Below are positions 13,152 to 21,334 of a stretch of DNA of 32,525 bases, piece by piece. Positions within the stretch are counted from its first letter, which is position 1. Each line of letters starts with the position of its first letter. The notes beneath the pieces are model-generated. The model saw nothing but the letters and a program-made list of their open reading frames with translations. It did not search any database and had not been told where the DNA came from. The DNA comes from Vulcanimicrobiia bacterium (GTDB lineage Bacteria; Vulcanimicrobiota; Vulcanimicrobiia; Eremiobacterales; Eremiobacteraceae), in NCBI GenBank assembly GCA_025450855.1, contig JANWLL010000097.1, positions 1 through 32,525 of the forward strand, written 5' to 3'. The position numbers were made by a program, and so were the translations under genes.

Positions 13152-13176
13152 GAACCGTCCGGCCGGCGGCGGTGTA
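13152..13176 (+). promoter_or_regulatory. Candidate ECF-sigma promoter of the cupredoxin-MPE-sigma operon
   Basis: GAACC (13152-13156), a 16-base spacer, then TGTA (13173-13176). The same GAACC-N16-YGTM arrangement precedes the nearby DUF4397 gene. GAAC-type -35 boxes with a GT-containing -10 at this spacing are typical of ECF sigma factors. The -10 ends only 8 bases before the ATG at 13185, so the transcript would be almost leaderless, and no clear Shine-Dalgarno sequence precedes that ATG. It is supported only by the motif and the position upstream of an ECF operon. Confidence 0.45.
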
Positions 13177-13184
13177 CTTGTCGC

Positions 13185-13532
13185 ATGAAGAACACGATCG
13201 GTTCGATCTCTGCGGTGGCGGCACTCGTCGCCTGCCTCGGCGCGGGCGCGTCGCCGAGCCCGTCCGTCGCCACGACGGCGGTCGCCATCGCCGACTACTC
13301 GTTCAAGCCCCCGACCATCACGATAGCGGCCGGCACGCGCGTCGTCTGGTCGCAGAAAGACGACGATCCGCACACAGTGACGGCCGACGACGGGTCGTTC
13401 GACTCCAAAGGGCTCGGCCAGGGCGATACGTACGTGCACGTCTTCGCCAAGCCCGGCCGCTATCCGTATCACTGCTCGGCGCATCCCTTCATGAAAGGCG
13501 TCGTCATCGTCACGAGAGGAAAAACGCCATGA
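13185..13532 (+). CDS. Exported plastocyanin-like cupredoxin
   Basis: 115 residues with a signal peptide (about 1-25, cleavage near GAGAS) and a blue-copper fold. The type I copper ligands are all present: His63 (DPHTV), Cys97, His100 and Met103 (YHCSAHPFMKG). It is expected to carry electrons or bind copper outside the cytoplasmic membrane. It is the first gene of a four-gene operon; its TGA stop overlaps the ATG of the metallophosphoesterase as ATGA, so the two are translationally coupled. Its redox partner is not known. Confidence 0.9.
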   Translation: MKNTIGSISAVAALVACLGAGASPSPSVATTAVAIADYSFKPPTITIAAGTRVVWSQKDDDPHTVTADDGSFDSKGLGQGDTYVHVFAKPGRYPYHCSAHPFMKGVVIVTRGKTP

Positions 13533-14449
13533 GCGAAACGCTCGACCGCTCGAAGTTCCTCGAATGCATGGCATGGTGCGGCACCGGCGTCGTCTACGCG
13601 CTTACCGGCACGGGCATCGTCGGCCGAGCGCTCGCAGACGCGAGCACGCAACCGCTGCCCGCGGGTGCGCCGACATTCGTCCAGATCAGCGACACGCACG
13701 TCGGGTTTCACGGTGAGGCGAACCACGATGTGCTCGCGACGTTCCAGACGGCGATCGACCGCATCAACGCGCTGCCGTCGCGGCCGGAGTTCGTCATGCA
13801 CACCGGCGATCTCACGCACCTGTCGGCGGACGCGCAGTTCGACACCGTCAAGCAGATGCTCGGCACGATCAAGGCGGGCGCGACGTACGCCGTTCCCGGC
13901 GAGCACGACGTCATCAACGACAAAGGGGCGGAGTTCTTCAAGATGTTCGGCCACCCGTCGGGCGACAAGTGGTATAGCTTCGAGGCGGCCGGCGTTCACG
14001 CGCTCGCTTTGACGAACGTCATCAACATCACGGCCGGGGGCCTGCTCGGGCGCGATCAGCTCGACTGGGCGCGCAAGGATCTCGCATCGATTCCGAAGAG
14101 CATGCCCGTCACCGTCTTCGCGCACATCCCGCTGTACGCCGTCTATCCCGATTGGGGCTGGACGACCGACGACTTCTCGGAGCTGCTGACGATGCTCCGT
14201 CCGTTCGACTCCGTCACCGTCCTCAACGGCCACATACACCAGGTCCTGTCGAAAGTCGACGGGAACGTGAAGTTCTTCACCGCCGCGTCGACGGCGTTTC
14301 CGCAGCCGAAGCCGGGCGCGGAGCCGAAGCCGCATCCGCTCGTCGTGCCGGCGGGCGAGCTTGCGAGCCGTCTCGGCGTACGAACGGTGACGATCGTTCC
14401 CGGCACGCACGAGATCGCGGTCGCAGACGAGACCCTTGCGGGATCATGA
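13529..14449 (+). CDS. Calcineurin-like metallophosphoesterase, probably exported
   Basis: 306 residues. The metallophosphoesterase metal ligands are Asp55 and His57 (ISDTHVG), Asp94 (TGDLTH), His126 in GEHD, His199 (FAHIPL), and His235/His237 (GHIHQ). The usual GNHD is GEHD here, which I recall as a feature of a subfamily linked to cupredoxin genes. The N terminus (LDRSKFLECMAWCGTG) looks like a Tat signal in which the twin arginine has become Arg-Ser-Lys. The start at 13529 is fixed by the ATGA overlap with the cupredoxin gene, although the frame is open upstream. Substrate unknown. Confidence 0.85.
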   Translation: MSETLDRSKFLECMAWCGTGVVYALTGTGIVGRALADASTQPLPAGAPTFVQISDTHVGFHGEANHDVLATFQTAIDRINALPSRPEFVMHTGDLTHLSADAQFDTVKQMLGTIKAGATYAVPGEHDVINDKGAEFFKMFGHPSGDKWYSFEAAGVHALALTNVINITAGGLLGRDQLDWARKDLASIPKSMPVTVFAHIPLYAVYPDWGWTTDDFSELLTMLRPFDSVTVLNGHIHQVLSKVDGNVKFFTAASTAFPQPKPGAEPKPHPLVVPAGELASRLGVRTVTIVPGTHEIAVADETLAGS

Positions 14450-14458
14450 GGTAGATCG

Positions 14459-15004
14459 ATGACGGCATCCGCCGATGCCGAACTCATATCTCGCCTCGCC
14501 GGCGACGACCACACCGCGCTCGACGAGGCGTACCGCGCCTTCGCACACCGGTGCAAAGCCGTCGCCATGCGCACCGTATCCGATGACGCCCTCGCGCAGG
14601 ACGCGGTGCAAGAAGCGTTCCTCTCGCTTTGGCATCACCGAAGCGGTCTCGTCGTCCGGGCTGCAGGCATCGGCCCGTGGCTCGTCGTCGTGACCCGTAA
14701 CGTCGCGCTCAACCTCGCACGGACTTCGCGCCGGCGTTCCGCGCGCGAAGCCGCGCACGCACCGCCTGAGCCGCGACCGGATCCGACAGAGCTCGCGGTC
14801 GCGAATATCGAGGCCGCCGCGCTACGCGACGCGATCGAGCGGCTGCCCGACGAGCAGCGCCGTGTTATCCGGCTCGCCTATTTCGGCGGCGCTACATTAG
14901 CCGAGGTCGCGGCGCGGACGGGCTCGCCGCTCGGCACGGTCAAGCGCCGCGCGCAACTCGCGCTCGCTCGGCTTGCGCGAACGCTCGGAGGTGCGGCGCG
15001 ATGA
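14459..15004 (+). CDS. ECF-type RNA polymerase sigma factor
   Basis: 181 residues with sigma region 2 (about 12-80; AQDAVQEAFLSLW is the -10 recognition helix area) and region 4 (about 125-176; helix-turn-helix with GTVKRRAQLALARL), and no region 3, as in sigma-70 family group 4 factors. An AGATCG/GAGG leader precedes the ATG. The stop overlaps the ATG of the anti-sigma gene, the typical arrangement for a sigma/anti-sigma pair. The shared GAACC-N16-YGTM sites before this operon and before the DUF4397 gene are its likely targets. Confidence 0.92.
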   Translation: MTASADAELISRLAGDDHTALDEAYRAFAHRCKAVAMRTVSDDALAQDAVQEAFLSLWHHRSGLVVRAAGIGPWLVVVTRNVALNLARTSRRRSAREAAHAPPEPRPDPTELAVANIEAAALRDAIERLPDEQRRVIRLAYFGGATLAEVAARTGSPLGTVKRRAQLALARLARTLGGAAR

Positions 15005-15579
15005 TAGAACATCCGACCGGCTTGCTGCAATCGCTCGCCCTCGGCGAGCTCGATCGCGATGAGGCCTTCGCGGTGATGCAGCATGCGGATTCCTGCGCCG
15101 AATGCGCGGGGGAGCTCGCCGATGCGATGCGAGGCGTCGCGGCGCTCGCTTCTGCCGCCGGCGCAGAGCTGTTGCCTTCAGCGAAAACTGCAGTGCGCCA
15201 GCGAGACTCCCGTTGGCTCGTCGGCAGCCTCGCCGCCGCGGCGCTCCTGCTCGGCGTTTGGAATGTTCAGCTCGAGACGACCTCGGCATCCGTGCCGGTC
15301 GACGCGCTCGTGCACAGCCATTTCGCGCACCATGCGCTGACCGGCACAGGCGGACAAGCGAAGCTCATCCAGGCGCTCGACGGGTCATGGGTCTATATCG
15401 TAGCGACCGGCTTACGGCCGCTGCGCGCGTACGACGTGCTGGTCGATGGAACGAAGATCGGCTCTCTACGAGCCGATCTCACGGGCAACGCGACCGGCTA
15501 TTGGCGCCGGCAAGCGGGCAAGATCGCGAGCGCGGCGCTCGCAGGTCAGGATAGCATGCTACGATGGGACGGCCGCTGA
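15001..15579 (+). CDS. Membrane anti-sigma factor with zinc-binding motif (RskA-like)
   Basis: 192 residues: an N-terminal cytoplasmic domain with a H-x3-C-x2-C zinc motif (HADSCAEC, about 28-35), one transmembrane helix (about 72-90), and an extracytoplasmic domain (95-192) resembling the C-terminal domain of anti-sigma K factors, with LIQALDGSWVYIVATGL and a YDVLVDG segment. It should hold the upstream ECF factor inactive until an envelope or redox signal releases it. It starts at the ATG inside the sigma gene stop (ATGA). The last 20 bases overlap the convergent zinc-ribbon gene. Confidence 0.85.
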   Translation: MIEHPTGLLQSLALGELDRDEAFAVMQHADSCAECAGELADAMRGVAALASAAGAELLPSAKTAVRQRDSRWLVGSLAAAALLLGVWNVQLETTSASVPVDALVHSHFAHHALTGTGGQAKLIQALDGSWVYIVATGLRPLRAYDVLVDGTKIGSLRADLTGNATGYWRRQAGKIASAALAGQDSMLRWDGR

Positions 15580-15708
15580 GGCGGCAAAACTCTCCCGAAG
15601 CATCTCCCAAAACCGGCGCGTGCGCGCGCACGCCGAGCAGATGAGCCAGCCGTTGATCTCGTAGAGATCATCGGACTCGCATTCGCACGCGCTGCATCGT
15701 TTCGACAT
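15559..15708 (-). CDS. 49-residue zinc-ribbon protein
   Basis: The reverse strand encodes 49 residues from ATG 15708 to TAG 15559. Four cysteines in two pairs (MSKRCSACECES, then LICSAC about 20 residues later) form a treble-clef or zinc-ribbon knuckle; a short basic/aromatic helix follows (ARTRRFWEMLRES). A GGGGAG Shine-Dalgarno sequence sits 9 bases before the ATG. The spacing C-x2-C-x15-C-x2-C, with tryptophan before the second pair, is hard to explain by chance. It is convergent with and overlaps the anti-sigma gene by 21 bases. Function unknown; nucleic-acid or protein binding is inferred. Confidence 0.65.
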   Translation of the reverse strand: MSKRCSACECESDDLYEINGWLICSACARTRRFWEMLRESFAASAAVPS

Positions 15709-15829
15709 CTATATACGCTCCCCGTTGCGTTCTCAGTTCCCAAACCGGCGACGCGCCAAACGTGTGCCGCCTTTCTGCACGCCTGGCGAGCGGGCGACCC
15801 ATGAATCGCCCATGACCGTTTTCGCGAGG

Positions 15830-15854
15830 GAACCTCTGGGAAAGTTTAGACGTC
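15830..15854 (+). promoter_or_regulatory. Candidate ECF-sigma promoter before the DUF4397 gene
   Basis: GAACC (15830-15834; GGGAACC in full), a 16-base spacer and CGTC (15851-15854). This matches the general ECF promoter form (GGAAC, then CGTC) and the same arrangement at 13152. The predicted start would give a leader of about 40 bases with an AAAGGA ribosome site before the TTG at 15900. The rest of the 191-base gap (15709-15899) shows a small GGGCGA/TCGCCC palindrome near 15792-15811 and nothing else I can name. Confidence 0.5.
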
Positions 15855-15899
15855 AACATCGAGGGGCGAAACAGTCCGGATTGAAAGGAAACCAGACCT

Positions 15900-16721
15900 T
15901 TGAAGAATCGATTCACGGCCGCGTGGCTCGCAGCTGCGGTAGCGACCGCAGCGGGATGCAACGGGCTCGGAAACACGATCTCCGGTTCGTTCGGCGGAAG
16001 CGGTAACGCCCGATTGATCCTCGCATCGCCGAAGACGACTCAGACCGGCATCGCCTTGCAGGCCGACCATGGGACGATCAACTCCGGCCTGAGCGCCGCG
16101 ACACCGATCGGCACGTACGCGAAAGTGAACGCCGGCAACGTCACCTTCGATATCAACACCGGGTCGGGCACGACCGACCTCGTGCCCGCGATCAACGTCA
16201 ACGTCTCGGCGTCGACGAACTACAGCGTCGTCCTCGAGGGCGAACCGGGCCTTTCCGACTACATGGCGGTCAGCTTCGCCGACACGAACGCGCTCAACAA
16301 TCCGAATACGGTCCGCTACAAGGTGAACAACGCGGCGCCGAACCTGGCGACCCCGGTCGACGTCTACGTCTGGCCGGCGTCGCAGTCGATGCCGACGACG
16401 CCTACCGTTCCGGCGCTCCCGCTCAATCAGGATTCGGGATCCGAGGCGAATCCGCCGGGCAACGCGTACATCCCGACGCTCGGGAGCTCGACCACACTGC
16501 CGAGCGGCACGTATGACGTCGCGATCGTTCCGCAAGGGACCATCCCCAACGGCTCGAGCGACCTGTTCGACGGCGCCACCGGCCTCAACGTGAACACGTC
16601 CTATTCGTTCACGATCGCAGACAACAACGCGACGCAGAACAACATCGGCGTGCTCTTATCGATCGACGAGCCGATACAGACGCAGAACCAGCTGAGGATC
16701 ACCAAGCACGCCGTCCGGTGA
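15900..16721 (+). CDS. DUF4397-type lipoprotein
   Basis: 273 residues with a lipoprotein signal peptide ending in ATAAGC (cysteine about residue 20), then two beta-rich repeats typical of DUF4397: segments such as YKVNNAAPNLATPVDVYVWP and LPSGTYDVAIVP. The start is TTG at 15900, preceded by AAAGGA. It is rich in Asn, Thr and Ser, low in charge, and probably sits on the outer side of the membrane. DUF4397 proteins are surface proteins without a defined activity. Its candidate ECF promoter suggests it is an output of the sigma/anti-sigma pair immediately upstream. Confidence 0.8.
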   Translation: MKNRFTAAWLAAAVATAAGCNGLGNTISGSFGGSGNARLILASPKTTQTGIALQADHGTINSGLSAATPIGTYAKVNAGNVTFDINTGSGTTDLVPAINVNVSASTNYSVVLEGEPGLSDYMAVSFADTNALNNPNTVRYKVNNAAPNLATPVDVYVWPASQSMPTTPTVPALPLNQDSGSEANPPGNAYIPTLGSSTTLPSGTYDVAIVPQGTIPNGSSDLFDGATGLNVNTSYSFTIADNNATQNNIGVLLSIDEPIQTQNQLRITKHAVR

Positions 16722-16820: not shown

Positions 16821-17630
16821 TTAGGCGTCGGTCGGCGTGGAGGCGGTGCGGATCTTCTCGAGCGCTCGGCGCTGCAGCCGCGACACGTGCATCTGCGTGC
16901 ACGATAGTCGGCGTGCGATCTCCGACTGCGAGACGCCCTGGAAGAAGCGCAGATAGACGATGATACGCTCGCGCTGTGAAAGCGTCGAACACGCGTCGCG
17001 CAGGAACGTCCGCTCGAGCAGCAGGTCGAGGTCGGCGTCGTTCGCTCCGACCGCATCGCCAAGCGTCGTCGACGACGGCCCGTCGCGGCCGTCCATCTCG
17101 GCGTCGAGCGACGCAAGCGCATATGCGCGGCTCGTCTCCTGGGCCTCGACGATGTCTTCGACCGACACGCCGAGTCTCGCCGCGAGGTCCGAAGGGGTCA
17201 CGGCGCGTCCGATCTCTATCGTCAACTCCTCCACAGCGCGTCCGACCGCGACGTTGAGATCTTTGAGGCGTCGCGGCACGCGCATCGCCCAGCTCTTGTC
17301 GCGGAAATGCCGCTTGATCTCGCCGACGATGGTCGGCACGGCGAACGAGCTGAACTCCACGCCGCGGCTCGGATCGAAGCGGTCGATCGCCTTGATCAAG
17401 CCGATGATCCCGACTTGGATGAGGTCCTCGAGGTTCTCAGCGCGGCTCGCGAAACGCGACGCGAGCTGGCGCACCATCGCGAGATGCGCGAACACGAGAT
17501 CGTCGCGCAGCGATTGTTCGCGCGTCGCCGCGAAGAGCGCGAACATCTCGCGACGTCGCGTCACGTCGATGACGCCGCTCGGGAGCGGCGTCGCAGGTTG
17601 CATTCCAAATGTCCGTTGAGAAACAGCCAC
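16821..17630 (-). CDS. SigB/SigF/SigG-type stress sigma factor
   Basis: About 269 residues with sigma regions 2 (DLIQVGIIGLIKAIDRFDP, then FSSFAVPTIVGEIKRHFRD), 3 (around VPRRLKDLN) and 4 (QRERIIVYLRFFQGVSQSEIA with CTQMHVSRLQRRAL). This is the group 3 sigma family controlled by partner switching (SigB, SigF). The frame is open to a GTG at 17642, but the GTG at 17630 is preferred because GGAGGTGA sits 8 bases before it. A SigB-type promoter lies upstream (17693-17718), so the gene is probably autoregulated. STAS and SpoIIE-HATPase genes nearby would supply its control; there is no separate RsbW gene here. Confidence 0.93.
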   Translation of the reverse strand: MAVSQRTFGMQPATPLPSGVIDVTRRREMFALFAATREQSLRDDLVFAHLAMVRQLASRFASRAENLEDLIQVGIIGLIKAIDRFDPSRGVEFSSFAVPTIVGEIKRHFRDKSWAMRVPRRLKDLNVAVGRAVEELTIEIGRAVTPSDLAARLGVSVEDIVEAQETSRAYALASLDAEMDGRDGPSSTTLGDAVGANDADLDLLLERTFLRDACSTLSQRERIIVYLRFFQGVSQSEIARRLSCTQMHVSRLQRRALEKIRTASTPTDA

Positions 17631-17692
17631 TAGGGACGTCACCTCCCGTCGGTCCGCCGGTGCCGGACTTCACGCCGGATATCTCACCCCTG

Positions 17693-18424: not shown

Positions 18425-18802
18425 TCACCCCGCGCTGCCGGCGACGTACTTCTCGCGCAAGCTCGCCCTTGCCGATGCGATATCGTCGTACATACCGAAG
18501 ACCTTGACGAGACCGGTCACGTCGAATATCCGGCGGATCTGCGGATTCTTACACACGACCGCGATCGAGCCGCCGCCGTCGCGCGCCGCTTTGAGCGCGG
18601 CGACGAGCGCGCCGAGACCGGTCGAGTCGATGTACGAGACCTTCGCGAAATCGACGACCAGAAGGTTGTGCCCGTCTTTGATCGCCGAGACGAGCGCGCT
18701 CTTCACTTCGGGCGAGGCGAACACGTCGATCTCGCCGACGAGTCTGACCTCGCTGATGCCGCTGTCGTCTTTCGACGGTACCATCGTGACGCAGGTATCC
18801 AC
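18425..18802 (-). CDS. STAS-domain anti-sigma factor antagonist (RsbV-like)
   Basis: 125 residues, a single STAS domain with the phosphorylation site Ser60 in YIDSTGLGAL, matching RsbV/SpoIIAA. In its unphosphorylated form such a protein binds the anti-sigma kinase and frees the sigma factor. The start is GTG at 18802, preceded by AGAGG; an ATG six codons in is an alternative. It has its own SigB-type promoter (18839-18864), so it should rise together with the sigma factor, a positive loop. It is divergent from the phosphatase-kinase fusion gene at 18905. Confidence 0.92.
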   Translation of the reverse strand: MDTCVTMVPSKDDSGISEVRLVGEIDVFASPEVKSALVSAIKDGHNLLVVDFAKVSYIDSTGLGALVAALKAARDGGGSIAVVCKNPQIRRIFDVTGLVKVFGMYDDIASARASLREKYVAGSAG

Positions 18803-18904: not shown

Positions 18905-21334
18905 GTGAATTGGAATTTTGCGACGCTCCGCGACCTCCCGCCTCGACGACGCTGGGCTGTTTTGACGGCCGTCGCGCTCGCCGGCATCGCCTTGCTCGCG
19001 ATCGACCGCTACACGCCGGCGATCCAGCTCAGGCCCCTTATCTTCTTGCTCGTTGTCGCCGCGGCGGCATGCGGCGGTCTCTGGTTCGGGATCGGCTACG
19101 CAGTATTGTCAGCAGCGTCGTTCACGATCGTCGAAGCGCTGAGCGACGGCAAACCGCTCGACGCAGCGATAGCCGTCAACACGGCCATCGCCGCGACGAC
19201 GACGTCGTTCATACCGGTCATCGTCTGGTACGTCACCCAGCGGACGCGCCAGATCGCCGGCCTCGAGGGGCGGCTTCGGCAAGCTGAGCTCGATCGCGAG
19301 CAGCTCGTCCGCAGCGAGGCGGGCCGGGCCGCCCTCATGCGTACCGAGGCCAATTACCGCGCGGTCGGTGAATCAATACCGTTCGGCATCTGGCAGACCG
19401 ACGCAGCCGGCAGATTGCAGTACGTCAGCCAAAGCTTCCGCGAGATAACGGGGATGACGCTCGAACAGATCTCGGACAACGGTTGGCTAGCGCGCGTGCC
19501 CACCGAAGACGCGAAACATTTCCTCGAGCGCTGGGCCGAACGCGACGCCGCGGGCGATGTATGGGAAGGCGAGTACCGCCTTCACGGCGTCGACGGCAAG
19601 TTCTACACGATTTTATCCCGGGGCGTGCGCATCAAGGACGAGCACGGCATCACGACGGGCTGGTCGGGCATGAGCCTTGACATCACCGACCGCAAGCGCG
19701 CCACGGACGCCGTCGCCCTACTAGAGGAAGTCGGACGTCAGCTGACGCTCTCGCTCGACCCGAACACGATCCTCGAGCGCGTCGCGAACGTTTGCGCCGC
19801 CCGCTTCGCCGACTGGGTCGCCATCGACATCGTCCAAGAAGATGGCTCGTTGCGTAGCGCGGCCGTCAGGCATGCGGATCCGAAGAAGCTCGAATCCGTC
19901 GTCGAGTTGCGCGCATACCCGCGCGATCCCGACGAGGTGCACGGGCCGAACGCGGTCGCGAGGACCGGCAAGTCCGAGCTCTATGCCGACGTGCCAGACG
20001 AGCTGATCGTACGGGGCGCGCGCGACGACCGACATATCGAGCTTTTGCGAGCCATCGGGATGCGCTCCGCGATGATCGTGCCGCTTATCGCGCGCGAGCG
20101 CGTCATCGGCACGCTCACGCTCGTCGACGCCGAATCGGGCCGGCGTTTCACGGAAAAGGAGCTGAGCGTCGCGGAGGTCCTGGCGGTCCGCACCGCGCTT
20201 GCCTATCAGAACGCGCTCCATTTCGCGCGCGAGTCGCGCGTCGCCGACACCCTTCAGCGCGCGTCGCTGCCGAGCGACCTGCCGCAATTGCCCGGGCTGC
20301 GGATCAACGCGACTTACCTGCCTGGGGCGACCGAGTCCGAGATCGGCGGCGATTGGTACGACGCGTTTTTGCTGCCGGACGGTAAGATCGGATTCACGAT
20401 CGGCGACGTCGCCGGCAAAGGTCTGCGCGCTGCGGTCTCGATGGGAGTCGTCCGCCAAGCGTTGCGCTACGCCGCGCTTGACGGCTTGTCGCCCTCGGCG
20501 GCCCTGCGGCGCGTCAACCGTCACCTCTGCCTCGAAGGTACGGGGATGGTGACCGCCGTGAGCGCCGTGCTCGACCTCGCGAACGACCGCCTCGTCTACG
20601 CGGGTGCAGGCCACCCGGCTGCTTTTATCTGCTCTCGGTCAAGCGATGTCGAGCTCGTCACGACGTCGGGAATGCCGCTCGGGTTGTTCGCGCAGGCGAC
20701 CTATACCGAGGTCGAGCGTCAGCTCGAGACCGGCGATCTGCTCGTCCTTTACACCGATGGTCTCATCGAAAACGAGCGCGACCTCGCGCGCGGCGAGCGC
20801 GAGCTTGAAGCCGCGATAAGCGCGGAGTCCAAGACCTCATCGCCGAATCCGGCGTTGTCTATCCTTCACCGCATGATCTCAGGCACGCCGAAAGACGACG
20901 TCGCGATACTCACGATCGGCTTGTTGCGGTGGCCGGTCGATCGTCTCGACGTCGAGGCACCGGCCGTGCCCGCGAGCGCCCGTATGCTCCGCCAATCGTT
21001 GCGGCGGCTTGCTGCGGGCGTCGGGCTTGACGAACAACGTTCGTTCGGGCTGCTCGTCGCAGCGGGCGAAGCGATCTCGAACGTCATCGAGCACGCATAT
21101 GGGCTGCGTGAGGGTCTCATCCACGTCACGGGGAATCGTGTCGACGACCAGCTCGTCGTCGAGATCAGCGACAACGGGAGCTGGCGCGCTCCACGGTCGG
21201 AGGGCCGTGGGCGAGGGCTCGCGCTCATGCGATCGACCGTCGATCAGACCGACGTCACCGCCAACGGTTCGGGCACGACCGTCAGGCTCATCGTGTCCCT
21301 CGCACCGACGCCGGCGTCGGAGAAGGTCGTATGA
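18905..21334 (+). CDS. Membrane PAS-GAF-SpoIIE phosphatase fused to an RsbW-type HATPase
   Basis: 809 residues: three membrane helices (about 17-34, 43-75, 90-112), PAS (148-262), GAF (275-435), PP2C/SpoIIE phosphatase (465-672) with metal ligands in GGDWYD (481-486), GDVAGKG (500-506), TDG (617-619) and KDD (663-665), and a C-terminal histidine-kinase-like ATPase (680-800) with E722/N726 (GEAISNVIEH), DNG (756-758) and GRGRGL (767-772). The phosphatase would dephosphorylate a STAS protein and the ATPase domain would phosphorylate it or bind the sigma factor, so opposing activities sit in one chain under PAS/GAF sensing. Start GTG at 18905; it overlaps the downstream STAS gene (ATGA). Confidence 0.92.
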   Translation: MNWNFATLRDLPPRRRWAVLTAVALAGIALLAIDRYTPAIQLRPLIFLLVVAAAACGGLWFGIGYAVLSAASFTIVEALSDGKPLDAAIAVNTAIAATTTSFIPVIVWYVTQRTRQIAGLEGRLRQAELDREQLVRSEAGRAALMRTEANYRAVGESIPFGIWQTDAAGRLQYVSQSFREITGMTLEQISDNGWLARVPTEDAKHFLERWAERDAAGDVWEGEYRLHGVDGKFYTILSRGVRIKDEHGITTGWSGMSLDITDRKRATDAVALLEEVGRQLTLSLDPNTILERVANVCAARFADWVAIDIVQEDGSLRSAAVRHADPKKLESVVELRAYPRDPDEVHGPNAVARTGKSELYADVPDELIVRGARDDRHIELLRAIGMRSAMIVPLIARERVIGTLTLVDAESGRRFTEKELSVAEVLAVRTALAYQNALHFARESRVADTLQRASLPSDLPQLPGLRINATYLPGATESEIGGDWYDAFLLPDGKIGFTIGDVAGKGLRAAVSMGVVRQALRYAALDGLSPSAALRRVNRHLCLEGTGMVTAVSAVLDLANDRLVYAGAGHPAAFICSRSSDVELVTTSGMPLGLFAQATYTEVERQLETGDLLVLYTDGLIENERDLARGERELEAAISAESKTSSPNPALSILHRMISGTPKDDVAILTIGLLRWPVDRLDVEAPAVPASARMLRQSLRRLAAGVGLDEQRSFGLLVAAGEAISNVIEHAYGLREGLIHVTGNRVDDQLVVEISDNGSWRAPRSEGRGRGLALMRSTVDQTDVTANGSGTTVRLIVSLAPTPASEKVV

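Follow-up and report, generated by a model that had tools for sequence, protein, structure and literature searches.

A conserved cupredoxin-phosphoesterase operon of the Eremiobacteraceae with its own ECF sigma and anti-sigma factors

In Sinorhizobium meliloti, the extracytoplasmic function (ECF) sigma factor RpoE4 and its anti-sigma factor control sorT, a cytochrome c gene and the pseudoazurin gene azu2, with sulfite as the signal (PMC3511301). A comparable arrangement of an ECF sigma factor, an anti-sigma factor and a type-1 copper protein is found in an operon on contig JANWLL010000097.1 of a Vulcanimicrobiia bacterium of the Eremiobacteraceae (32,525 nucleotides, hereafter the window), which belongs to a draft genome of 2.34 Mb that is 81% complete. 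However, the copper protein of this operon, a cupredoxin, is paired with a calcineurin-type phosphoesterase, whereas the partners in the RpoE4 system are a sulfite oxidase and a cytochrome c, and the word phosphoesterase is absent from the main text of that paper. Acinetobacter baumannii SigAb-AabA-AabB is an autoregulated, copper-responsive ECF system with linked anti-sigma proteins, as in the window; the available text names no cupredoxin or phosphoesterase target, unlike the window operon, and leaves open how copper acts on the anti-sigma proteins (PMC12153292). Myxococcus xanthus CorE responds to copper by sensing it directly through cysteine motifs, with no anti-sigma factor (PMC10141476). 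The window ECF sigma factor departs from the CorE type, which is marked by a CxC motif, a cysteine-rich C-terminal extension and the lack of an anti-sigma factor, in that it has a single cysteine among its 181 residues and its gene is linked to one for an anti-sigma factor. An ECF-controlled metallophosphoesterase is described in the SigM-UpsH system of Bacillus subtilis, in the available account of which no cupredoxin is mentioned (PMC11898649).

Within the openly licensed literature, no paper was found that joins an ECF sigma factor, a metallophosphoesterase and a cupredoxin or plastocyanin, and none of the three papers listed for sigma factors in Eremiobacterota names either subject in its title or its abstract; the available text of one review mentions neither copper nor phosphoesterase (PMC8103513). 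It appears rather probable that the four genes form a self-contained ECF unit, a metal- or redox-sensing switch that controls its own operon and has a copper protein and a phosphoesterase as its output. The sequence evidence consists of the operon itself, the conservation of its promoter, the linkage retained where the operon is split, and the conservation of an HFxH motif in the anti-sigma factor; the release mechanism, the metal, the export of the products and the substrate of the enzyme are inferred.

The operon and its promoter in related genomes

The four genes are closely packed (Table 1), with ATGA overlaps between the cupredoxin and phosphoesterase genes (13529-13532) and between the ECF and anti-sigma genes (15001-15004), and with 9 bases between the phosphoesterase and ECF genes. 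Pfam cut-offs are passed by the cupredoxin, Metallophos and Sigma70_r2/r4_2 matches and by the DUF4397 match of a lipoprotein gene downstream; the zf-HC2 match of the anti-sigma factor, at 20.3 bits, falls slightly below its cut-off of 22.2. The sigma factor has fewer than 200 residues and regions 2 and 4 only, as the ECF definition asks (Sigma70_r2 at residues 25-93 and r4_2 at 121-172 of 181), and its NCBIfam sigma70-ECF match of 86.4 bits is above cut-off.

Fourteen genomes of the family were compared, including that of the window (G000) and a sister species of the same genus (G001); the relatives with the system are mostly Candidatus Eremiobacterota records. A whole ECF orthologue of at least 53% identity is present in 10 of the 14, and in an eleventh, G010, it is split over two contigs. 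ECF sigma factor and phosphoesterase co-occur in 11 genomes and are both missing from the other three (G006, G007 and G009), which hold weak paralogues only. All four genes stand together in eight genomes (the window's own, G001, G012, G003, G005, G008, G002 and G010), counting G002, in which a contig end truncates the anti-sigma gene, and G010, in which the unit is split by a contig break. Across the phylum, some phosphoesterase match occurs in 81 of 149 genomes, the weaker ones being other metallophosphoesterases. Twenty matches outside the family were fetched, 19 from the same class and one from another (G066), which carries the phosphoesterase alone. The cupredoxin, phosphoesterase and ECF genes are found together at 16 of the 19 class loci, the ECF gene being divergent in G052, and one further locus has the phosphoesterase and ECF genes at a contig edge. 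In a tree of 54 ECF sequences, from which the split G010 gene was left out, the 10 family operon sigma factors lie on one side of a branch with support 100/99, and 18 from other families of the class group together with support 99/93.

The first-pass annotation of the window had proposed that the ECF sigma factor controls its own operon, cupredoxin and exported phosphoesterase included, from a GAACC-N16-TGTA promoter, and the comparison with relatives found this motif, as GAACC-N16-YRTA or a near variant, conserved before the orthologous genes. The pattern TGAACC-N16-[CT][AG]TA lies upstream of the cupredoxin gene at 10 of 11 family loci and at one of 18 other loci of the class, and the looser A[AT]CC-N16/17-[CT][AG]TA at 10 of 11 and 17 of 18, where Markov resampling gives an expectation of 0.19 and 0.26, respectively. 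These counts omit G090 (at a contig edge) and G066, which have no cupredoxin match, and score G085 as a miss, its site lying 82 bases inside the script-chosen open reading frame (ORF) start, just beyond the stretch used. The AACC/ATCC core begins 31-34 bases before the script-chosen start codon in 12 of the 27 motif-bearing loci, which would place the first transcribed base on the start codon or beside it; a leaderless mRNA is thus likely for the operon, that of the window included, in which the start codon follows 8 bases past the -10 box. Within 220 bases upstream of the cupredoxin gene of G012 (locus L075), the -35 half is duplicated along with a short repeat containing GGACC...GGTCC, which looks like a small repeat inserted in the promoter.

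The best evidence that the sigma factor drives the cupredoxin and phosphoesterase genes comes from three genomes of one genus (G004, G011 and G013), in which the operon is split, the cupredoxin-phosphoesterase pair being on another contig than the ECF-anti-sigma pair, and each half keeps one rare promoter. A refined pattern, TGAACCG-N15-YRTA, had been derived from known operon promoters and from the upstream sequence of the lone ECF genes in these three genomes, when the location of their cupredoxin genes was not yet known, and a scan of the 14 family genomes found TGAACCG-N15-CATA before both pairs in all three; in G011 the pattern also occurs on a third contig, which ends inside a cupredoxin gene. 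Given this conservation of the promoter, across the class and before each half of the split operon, the ECF sigma factor very probably drives its own operon.

A second target of the window's sigma factor in this genus appears to be a small exported protein. TGAACC-N16-YRTA has two matches in G000, both preceding genes for exported-looking proteins and both with a counterpart in G001, the remaining three G001 matches lying inside ORFs. One is the operon site; the other pair of orthologous sites (G000:C110:9992 and G001:C39:50305) lies in no ORF of more than 120 residues and keeps TGAACC and GCGGTGTACTCG while 5 of 16 spacer bases differ. The protein encoded downstream begins with a signal-peptide-like stretch, has 80 residues in G000 (C110:10054-10293) and 66 in G001 (C39:50082-50270), and was found in 2 of 61 genomes, both of this genus. 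The two versions share the stretch IEISGSSE[ST]WSSPS and differ in their C-terminal tails. In the 12 other family genomes, 9 of 15 matches to TGAACC-N14-SGYRTA are known operon or half-operon sites, and with so few matches beyond them the regulon looks very small.

Several observations weigh against this account of the promoter and the unit. The motif is no more frequent than its reversed control: TGAACCG-N15-YRTA occurs once in G000, at the operon, as does its control; TGAACC-N16-YRTA is matched twice in G000 and five times in G001, its control nine times in each; and the 15 matches to TGAACC-N14-SGYRTA compare with 19. The case for the promoter therefore rests on position and conservation. 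The looser pattern was devised after the upstream stretches had been inspected, and five of these stretches reached 90 bases past the called ORF start, so that its enrichment should be read as an optimistic figure. The G002 operon, the sole exception in the family, lacks the motif; in G054 and G032 no ECF gene was detected within 4 kb of the cupredoxin-phosphoesterase pair; and the 54-sequence tree did not recover the union of the family and other-class operon sigma factors.

Table 1. Positions of the operon, the DUF4397 gene and their promoter sites in the window.
Feature	Positions	Strand	Evidence
Operon promoter: -35 (T)GAACC(G), 16-base spacer, -10 TGTA	13152..13176	+	
Cupredoxin, 115 aa	13185..13532	+	Pfam Cupredoxin_1 51.6 bits, Copper-bind 41.9 bits
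Calcineurin-type phosphoesterase, 306 aa from ATG 13529	13529..14449	+	Pfam Metallophos 45.1 bits
ECF sigma factor, 181 aa, regions 2 and 4	14459..15004	+	Pfam Sigma70_r2, r4_2
Membrane anti-sigma factor, 192 aa	15001..15579	+	zf-HC2, alignment, AlphaFold model
Promoter-like site of DUF4397 gene: GGAACC-N16-CGTC	15829..15854	+	
DUF4397 lipoprotein, TTG start, 273 aa	15900..16721	+	Pfam DUF4397 40.7 bits; lipobox by eye

The anti-sigma factor and its HFxH motif

The anti-sigma factor has the features of class I zinc anti-sigma factors: the motif H28-x3-C32-x2-C35 is invariant in all 25 aligned copies (the G002 ORF cut by the contig end was left out), the structural model has N-terminal helices, and zf-HC2 matches at an E-value of 0.01 or better in 24 of the 25. 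Eleven alignment columns are invariant, of which H4, G15, L17, H28, C32 and C35 belong to the zinc domain and H107, F108, H110, K121 and W130 lie beyond the membrane helix. The extracytoplasmic H107-F108-x-H110 (HFxH) is thus common to all copies and mostly reads HSHFxHH in this family, with the variant AHFEH at locus L056. When all fetched loci were scanned for ORFs with Hx3Cx2C and a hydrophobic segment, HFxH was present in 21 distinct ORFs from phosphoesterase loci and in three from the split genomes, and absent from 26 other candidate anti-sigma ORFs, not all of which are proven anti-sigma factors and which include some orthologue pairs. A 49-residue ORF on the minus strand (15559-15708) overlaps the 3' end of the anti-sigma gene and resembles a zinc ribbon in having two CxxC pairs; its G001 counterpart has one residue changed.

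The AlphaFold model (mean predicted local distance difference test score 85, predicted template modelling score 0.55) has a helix at residues 71-94, taken as the transmembrane helix, followed by strands from 108 to 190. Foldseek returned weak matches to this model, the best at an E-value of 0.02 and none at 0.001, led by a copper-only superoxide dismutase (SOD) subunit and many Cu,Zn SODs. The best VIA-align match was an SOD1 lacking loops IV and VII, with a Z score of 9.8 and a root mean square deviation of 2.5 across 86 aligned residues; all of the 50 matches listed were Cu,Zn SODs or domain II of the SOD copper chaperone. The protein resembles the RskA type (SigK-RskA; PMC7406223) in having an N-terminal anti-sigma domain, one transmembrane helix and an extracytoplasmic beta domain. 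Its differences from that type are the zinc motif, the invariant HFxH and the lack of a match of its own to RskA_C at an E-value of 0.01; four of the 25 copies have one. By hhalign, the window protein aligns over most of its length with 13 RskA_C anti-sigma factors of the class at 99% probability, by which measure the barrel appears to be a divergent RskA_C-type domain.

A tentative proposal is that the anti-sigma factor senses a periplasmic metal directly, an RskA-like barrel of SOD topology without the catalytic loops binding copper through the juxtamembrane HFxH and thereby freeing the ECF sigma factor. The SOD-like fold may be general and HFxH particular to this gene pair, and likeness of fold is in itself no evidence of function. 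The model itself gives reasons for caution. A Z score of 9.8 is only moderately above 8, and scores below 8 are common. If the barrel is of the divergent RskA_C type, its likeness to SOD may likewise be general and uninformative on copper. In Cu,Zn SODs the copper and zinc ligand histidines sit in metal loops. Residue 106 of the model aligns with residue 1 of the SOD chain (as judged from the aligned ranges only), which places H107 and H110 close to the N terminus of SOD; as modelled they lie away from the SOD copper site and may perhaps be structural. In addition, a phosphoesterase locus of Gemmatirosa has an anti-sigma-like ORF without HFxH.

Output proteins and the possible role of the unit

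The cupredoxin has a signal-peptide-like start and, in all 34 aligned rows, the type-1 copper ligands H-C-H-M, both judged by eye; its best solved chains are a copper nitrite reductase domain, a blue copper domain protein and amicyanins. The phosphoesterase, probably exported in view of an N-terminal signal-like stretch seen by eye, is closest among solved structures to 2dxl (E-value 4e-17) and Rv0805 (2hy1; E-value 7.5e-13) over about 220 positions. The structure 2dxl is of the GpdQ type, and GpdQ and Rv0805 are class III phosphodiesterases, for which the metal-ligand set is D, H, D, N, H, H, H. The window enzyme shares with both the calcineurin fold and the DxH, GD, H and GHxH positions, and D55, H57, D94, H199, H235 and H237 are invariant in 37 rows; it differs in its exported-looking N terminus and in GEHD for GNHD (residues 124-127, window 13898-13909), a replacement found in 37 of 37 rows from several phyla. 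The sequence thus resembles class III phosphodiesterases, with a ligand set different from theirs, and is not classed with them here.

Beyond the phylum, the cupredoxin-phosphoesterase pair also occurs in Streptomyces and on a Mycobacteroides plasmid, and a cupredoxin match follows the phosphoesterase in Burkholderia arboris, Caballeronia (with a divergent ECF gene) and Gemmatirosa; the loci of Burkholderia vietnamiensis, Cupriavidus and Methylocystis gave no cupredoxin match. A scan of genome contigs yielded just five named genome records with the phosphoesterase, four titled Candidatus Eremiobacterota and one Proteobacteria, and the wider spread therefore rests on plasmid records, against which the ECF sigma factor gave tblastn identities of 31.7 to 35.8% among the matches listed. 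Being spread over distant taxa, the pair would be old or mobile, with a varying ECF partner.

The first-pass annotation suggested an envelope or a copper/redox stress response. The copper/redox reading is plausible, the type-1 copper protein being joined by an independent hint from the HFxH anti-sigma factor, with copper itself inferred. An envelope or lipid-carrier stress response, in which the phosphoesterase would free or recycle phosphorylated envelope intermediates, HFxH would be structural and copper would matter only to the cupredoxin, is a rather doubtful alternative. It has a precedent in the role proposed for SigM-controlled UpsH by authors who suggest seeking such enzymes in envelope-stress regulons (PMC11898649), and the window phosphoesterase is likewise exported-looking; however, UpsH is assigned to COG1408 (PMC11898649), an assignment other than that of the window enzyme with its closest relatives GpdQ and Rv0805, and the tight pairing with a cupredoxin, retained in Streptomyces and on the Mycobacteroides plasmid, and the specific HFxH would be left unexplained.

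It is also unlikely that the operon is a respiratory or redox module in which the cupredoxin is an electron shuttle and the sigma factor answers a reduced substrate, as RpoE4 answers sulfite. RpoE4 does control a pseudoazurin operon (PMC3511301), the matches of the window cupredoxin are mostly electron-transfer proteins, and on the Mycobacteroides plasmid the pair follows an ECF sigma factor, a Rieske protein and a molybdopterin oxidoreductase; yet the conserved four-gene unit holds a hydrolase and no oxidoreductase, wider neighbourhoods not having been examined for one. At that plasmid locus (L212, Mycobacteroides abscessus) the genes for the ECF sigma factor, Rieske protein, cupredoxin and metallophosphoesterase stand one after another, following molybdopterin oxidoreductase and epimerase genes.

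As a self-contained switch, the unit would work as follows. In the resting cell the ECF sigma factor would be held by the cytoplasmic zinc anti-sigma domain of the membrane anti-sigma factor. The extracytoplasmic barrel, in which the juxtamembrane HFxH looks like a metal site, would read a signal in the periplasm, at best guess copper or a copper/redox change, and the anti-sigma factor would then free the sigma factor. RNA polymerase with the ECF sigma factor would transcribe the operon from GAACC-N16-YRTA, giving positive feedback with the inhibitor made last, and the output, a type-1 copper protein and a GpdQ/Rv0805-like phosphoesterase, would be exported. The sigma factor would in this genus also transcribe the gene for the exported protein of 66-80 residues elsewhere in the genome, and the DUF4397 lipoprotein downstream would be a neighbour under another promoter type, GGAACC-N16-CGTY.

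The DUF4397 lipoprotein gene and its promoter-like site

The first-pass annotation had placed this lipoprotein in the same regulon, on the ground that both genes are preceded by GAACC with a 16-base spacer. The two sites do exist on the plus strand. Before the operon, GAACC lies at 13152-13156 and TGTA at 13173-13176; before the lipoprotein gene, the boxes occupy 15830-15834 (GAACC) and 15851-15854 (CGTC). Yet membership in the regulon was rejected on the -10 box, the distribution of the gene and the promoters of its orthologues. That a single ECF sigma factor drives both, tolerating TGTA and CGTC at -10, is quite improbable. In its favour are the identical -35 core and spacing, the adjoining position of operon and lipoprotein gene in both genomes of the genus, and the conservation of the lipoprotein site in the sister species, where 6 of 16 spacer bases differ but neither box does, 285 of 333 positions being identical over the whole stretch. 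Against it, A[AT]CC-N16/17-CGTY was found in none of 29 stretches upstream of the operon, as compared with 27 for the YRTA form. DUF4397 is present in 8 of the 14 family genomes, some of them incomplete (the match in G009 is partial), and independently of the ECF gene, in 5 of the 11 genomes with it and all three without it. The genomes G012, G003 and G010, which have the ECF gene, the operon and the operon motif, contain no GAACC with a fitting -10 box in the 400 bases upstream of DUF4397; in G010 a lone GAACC spans the start codon. In G007, which lacks an ECF orthologue, DUF4397 is preceded by GGAACC-N16-CGTT, although this site overlaps an open frame of 232 codons. Two DUF4397 copies in G006 have no fitting upstream site, and among the loci fetched DUF4397 adjoins the operon only in this genus.

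Since the boxes stayed intact while the spacer diverged, GGAACC-N16-CGTC is probably a real promoter. The simplest account is that it is served by a different ECF class, the lipoprotein then probably being a neighbour and not part of the operon system. A search of G000 and G001 for an ECF gene with a GGAACC-N16-CGTY autoregulatory site gave none that was convincing; GGAACC sites near ECF genes at loci L112 and L241 were discarded for spacers of 18 and 19 bases, the L112 site also appearing, by eye, to lie at the end of a coding region. The related GGAACC-N16-CGTTTTC, which shares only CGT with the DUF4397 -10 box, is matched twice in G000 and twice in G001, is absent from the remaining 12 family genomes, has no control matches and likely marks another ECF regulon. 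In both genomes of the genus these sites (G000:C75:37315 and C85:13157; G001:C4:246613 and C17:19187) precede two genes, one with a POTRA-like start as judged by eye and one for a CVNH-domain protein; in G001 the site at the former gene is overlapped by an open frame on the reverse strand.

Taken alone, the pair of motifs in the window is within chance expectation: GAACC-N16-YGT has five matches there, one of them inside the DUF4397 gene (16340), against a shuffle mean of 2.3, and five or more occurred in 8 of 100 shuffles. The genome-wide search for GAACC-N16-YGTM suggested at first pass returned 80 matches in G000 against 51 for the reversed control, so that the motif as written selects little, and it was dropped. 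That the operon promoter is itself a product of chance in a G+C-rich genome is nonetheless scarcely credible: the short motif is near chance level and the refined one not over-represented in number, but it stands in a conserved position across the class and precedes each half of the operon where this is split.

The genes adjoining the lipoprotein gene, at 16821-17642 (minus), 18425-18802 (minus) and 18905-21334 (plus), resemble a partner-switching stress module, its members being a sigma factor with regions 2, 3 and 4, which we take to be SigB/SigF-like, a STAS protein and a PAS-GAF-SpoIIE-HATPase protein.

These results correct a tempting reading of the window, as a common -35 box and spacing do not amount to a common regulon. 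They provide a testable promoter, a regulator and a candidate sensor for a stress switch in Eremiobacterota, and, should HFxH prove to bind metal, it would represent a novel route to direct copper sensing by an anti-sigma factor.

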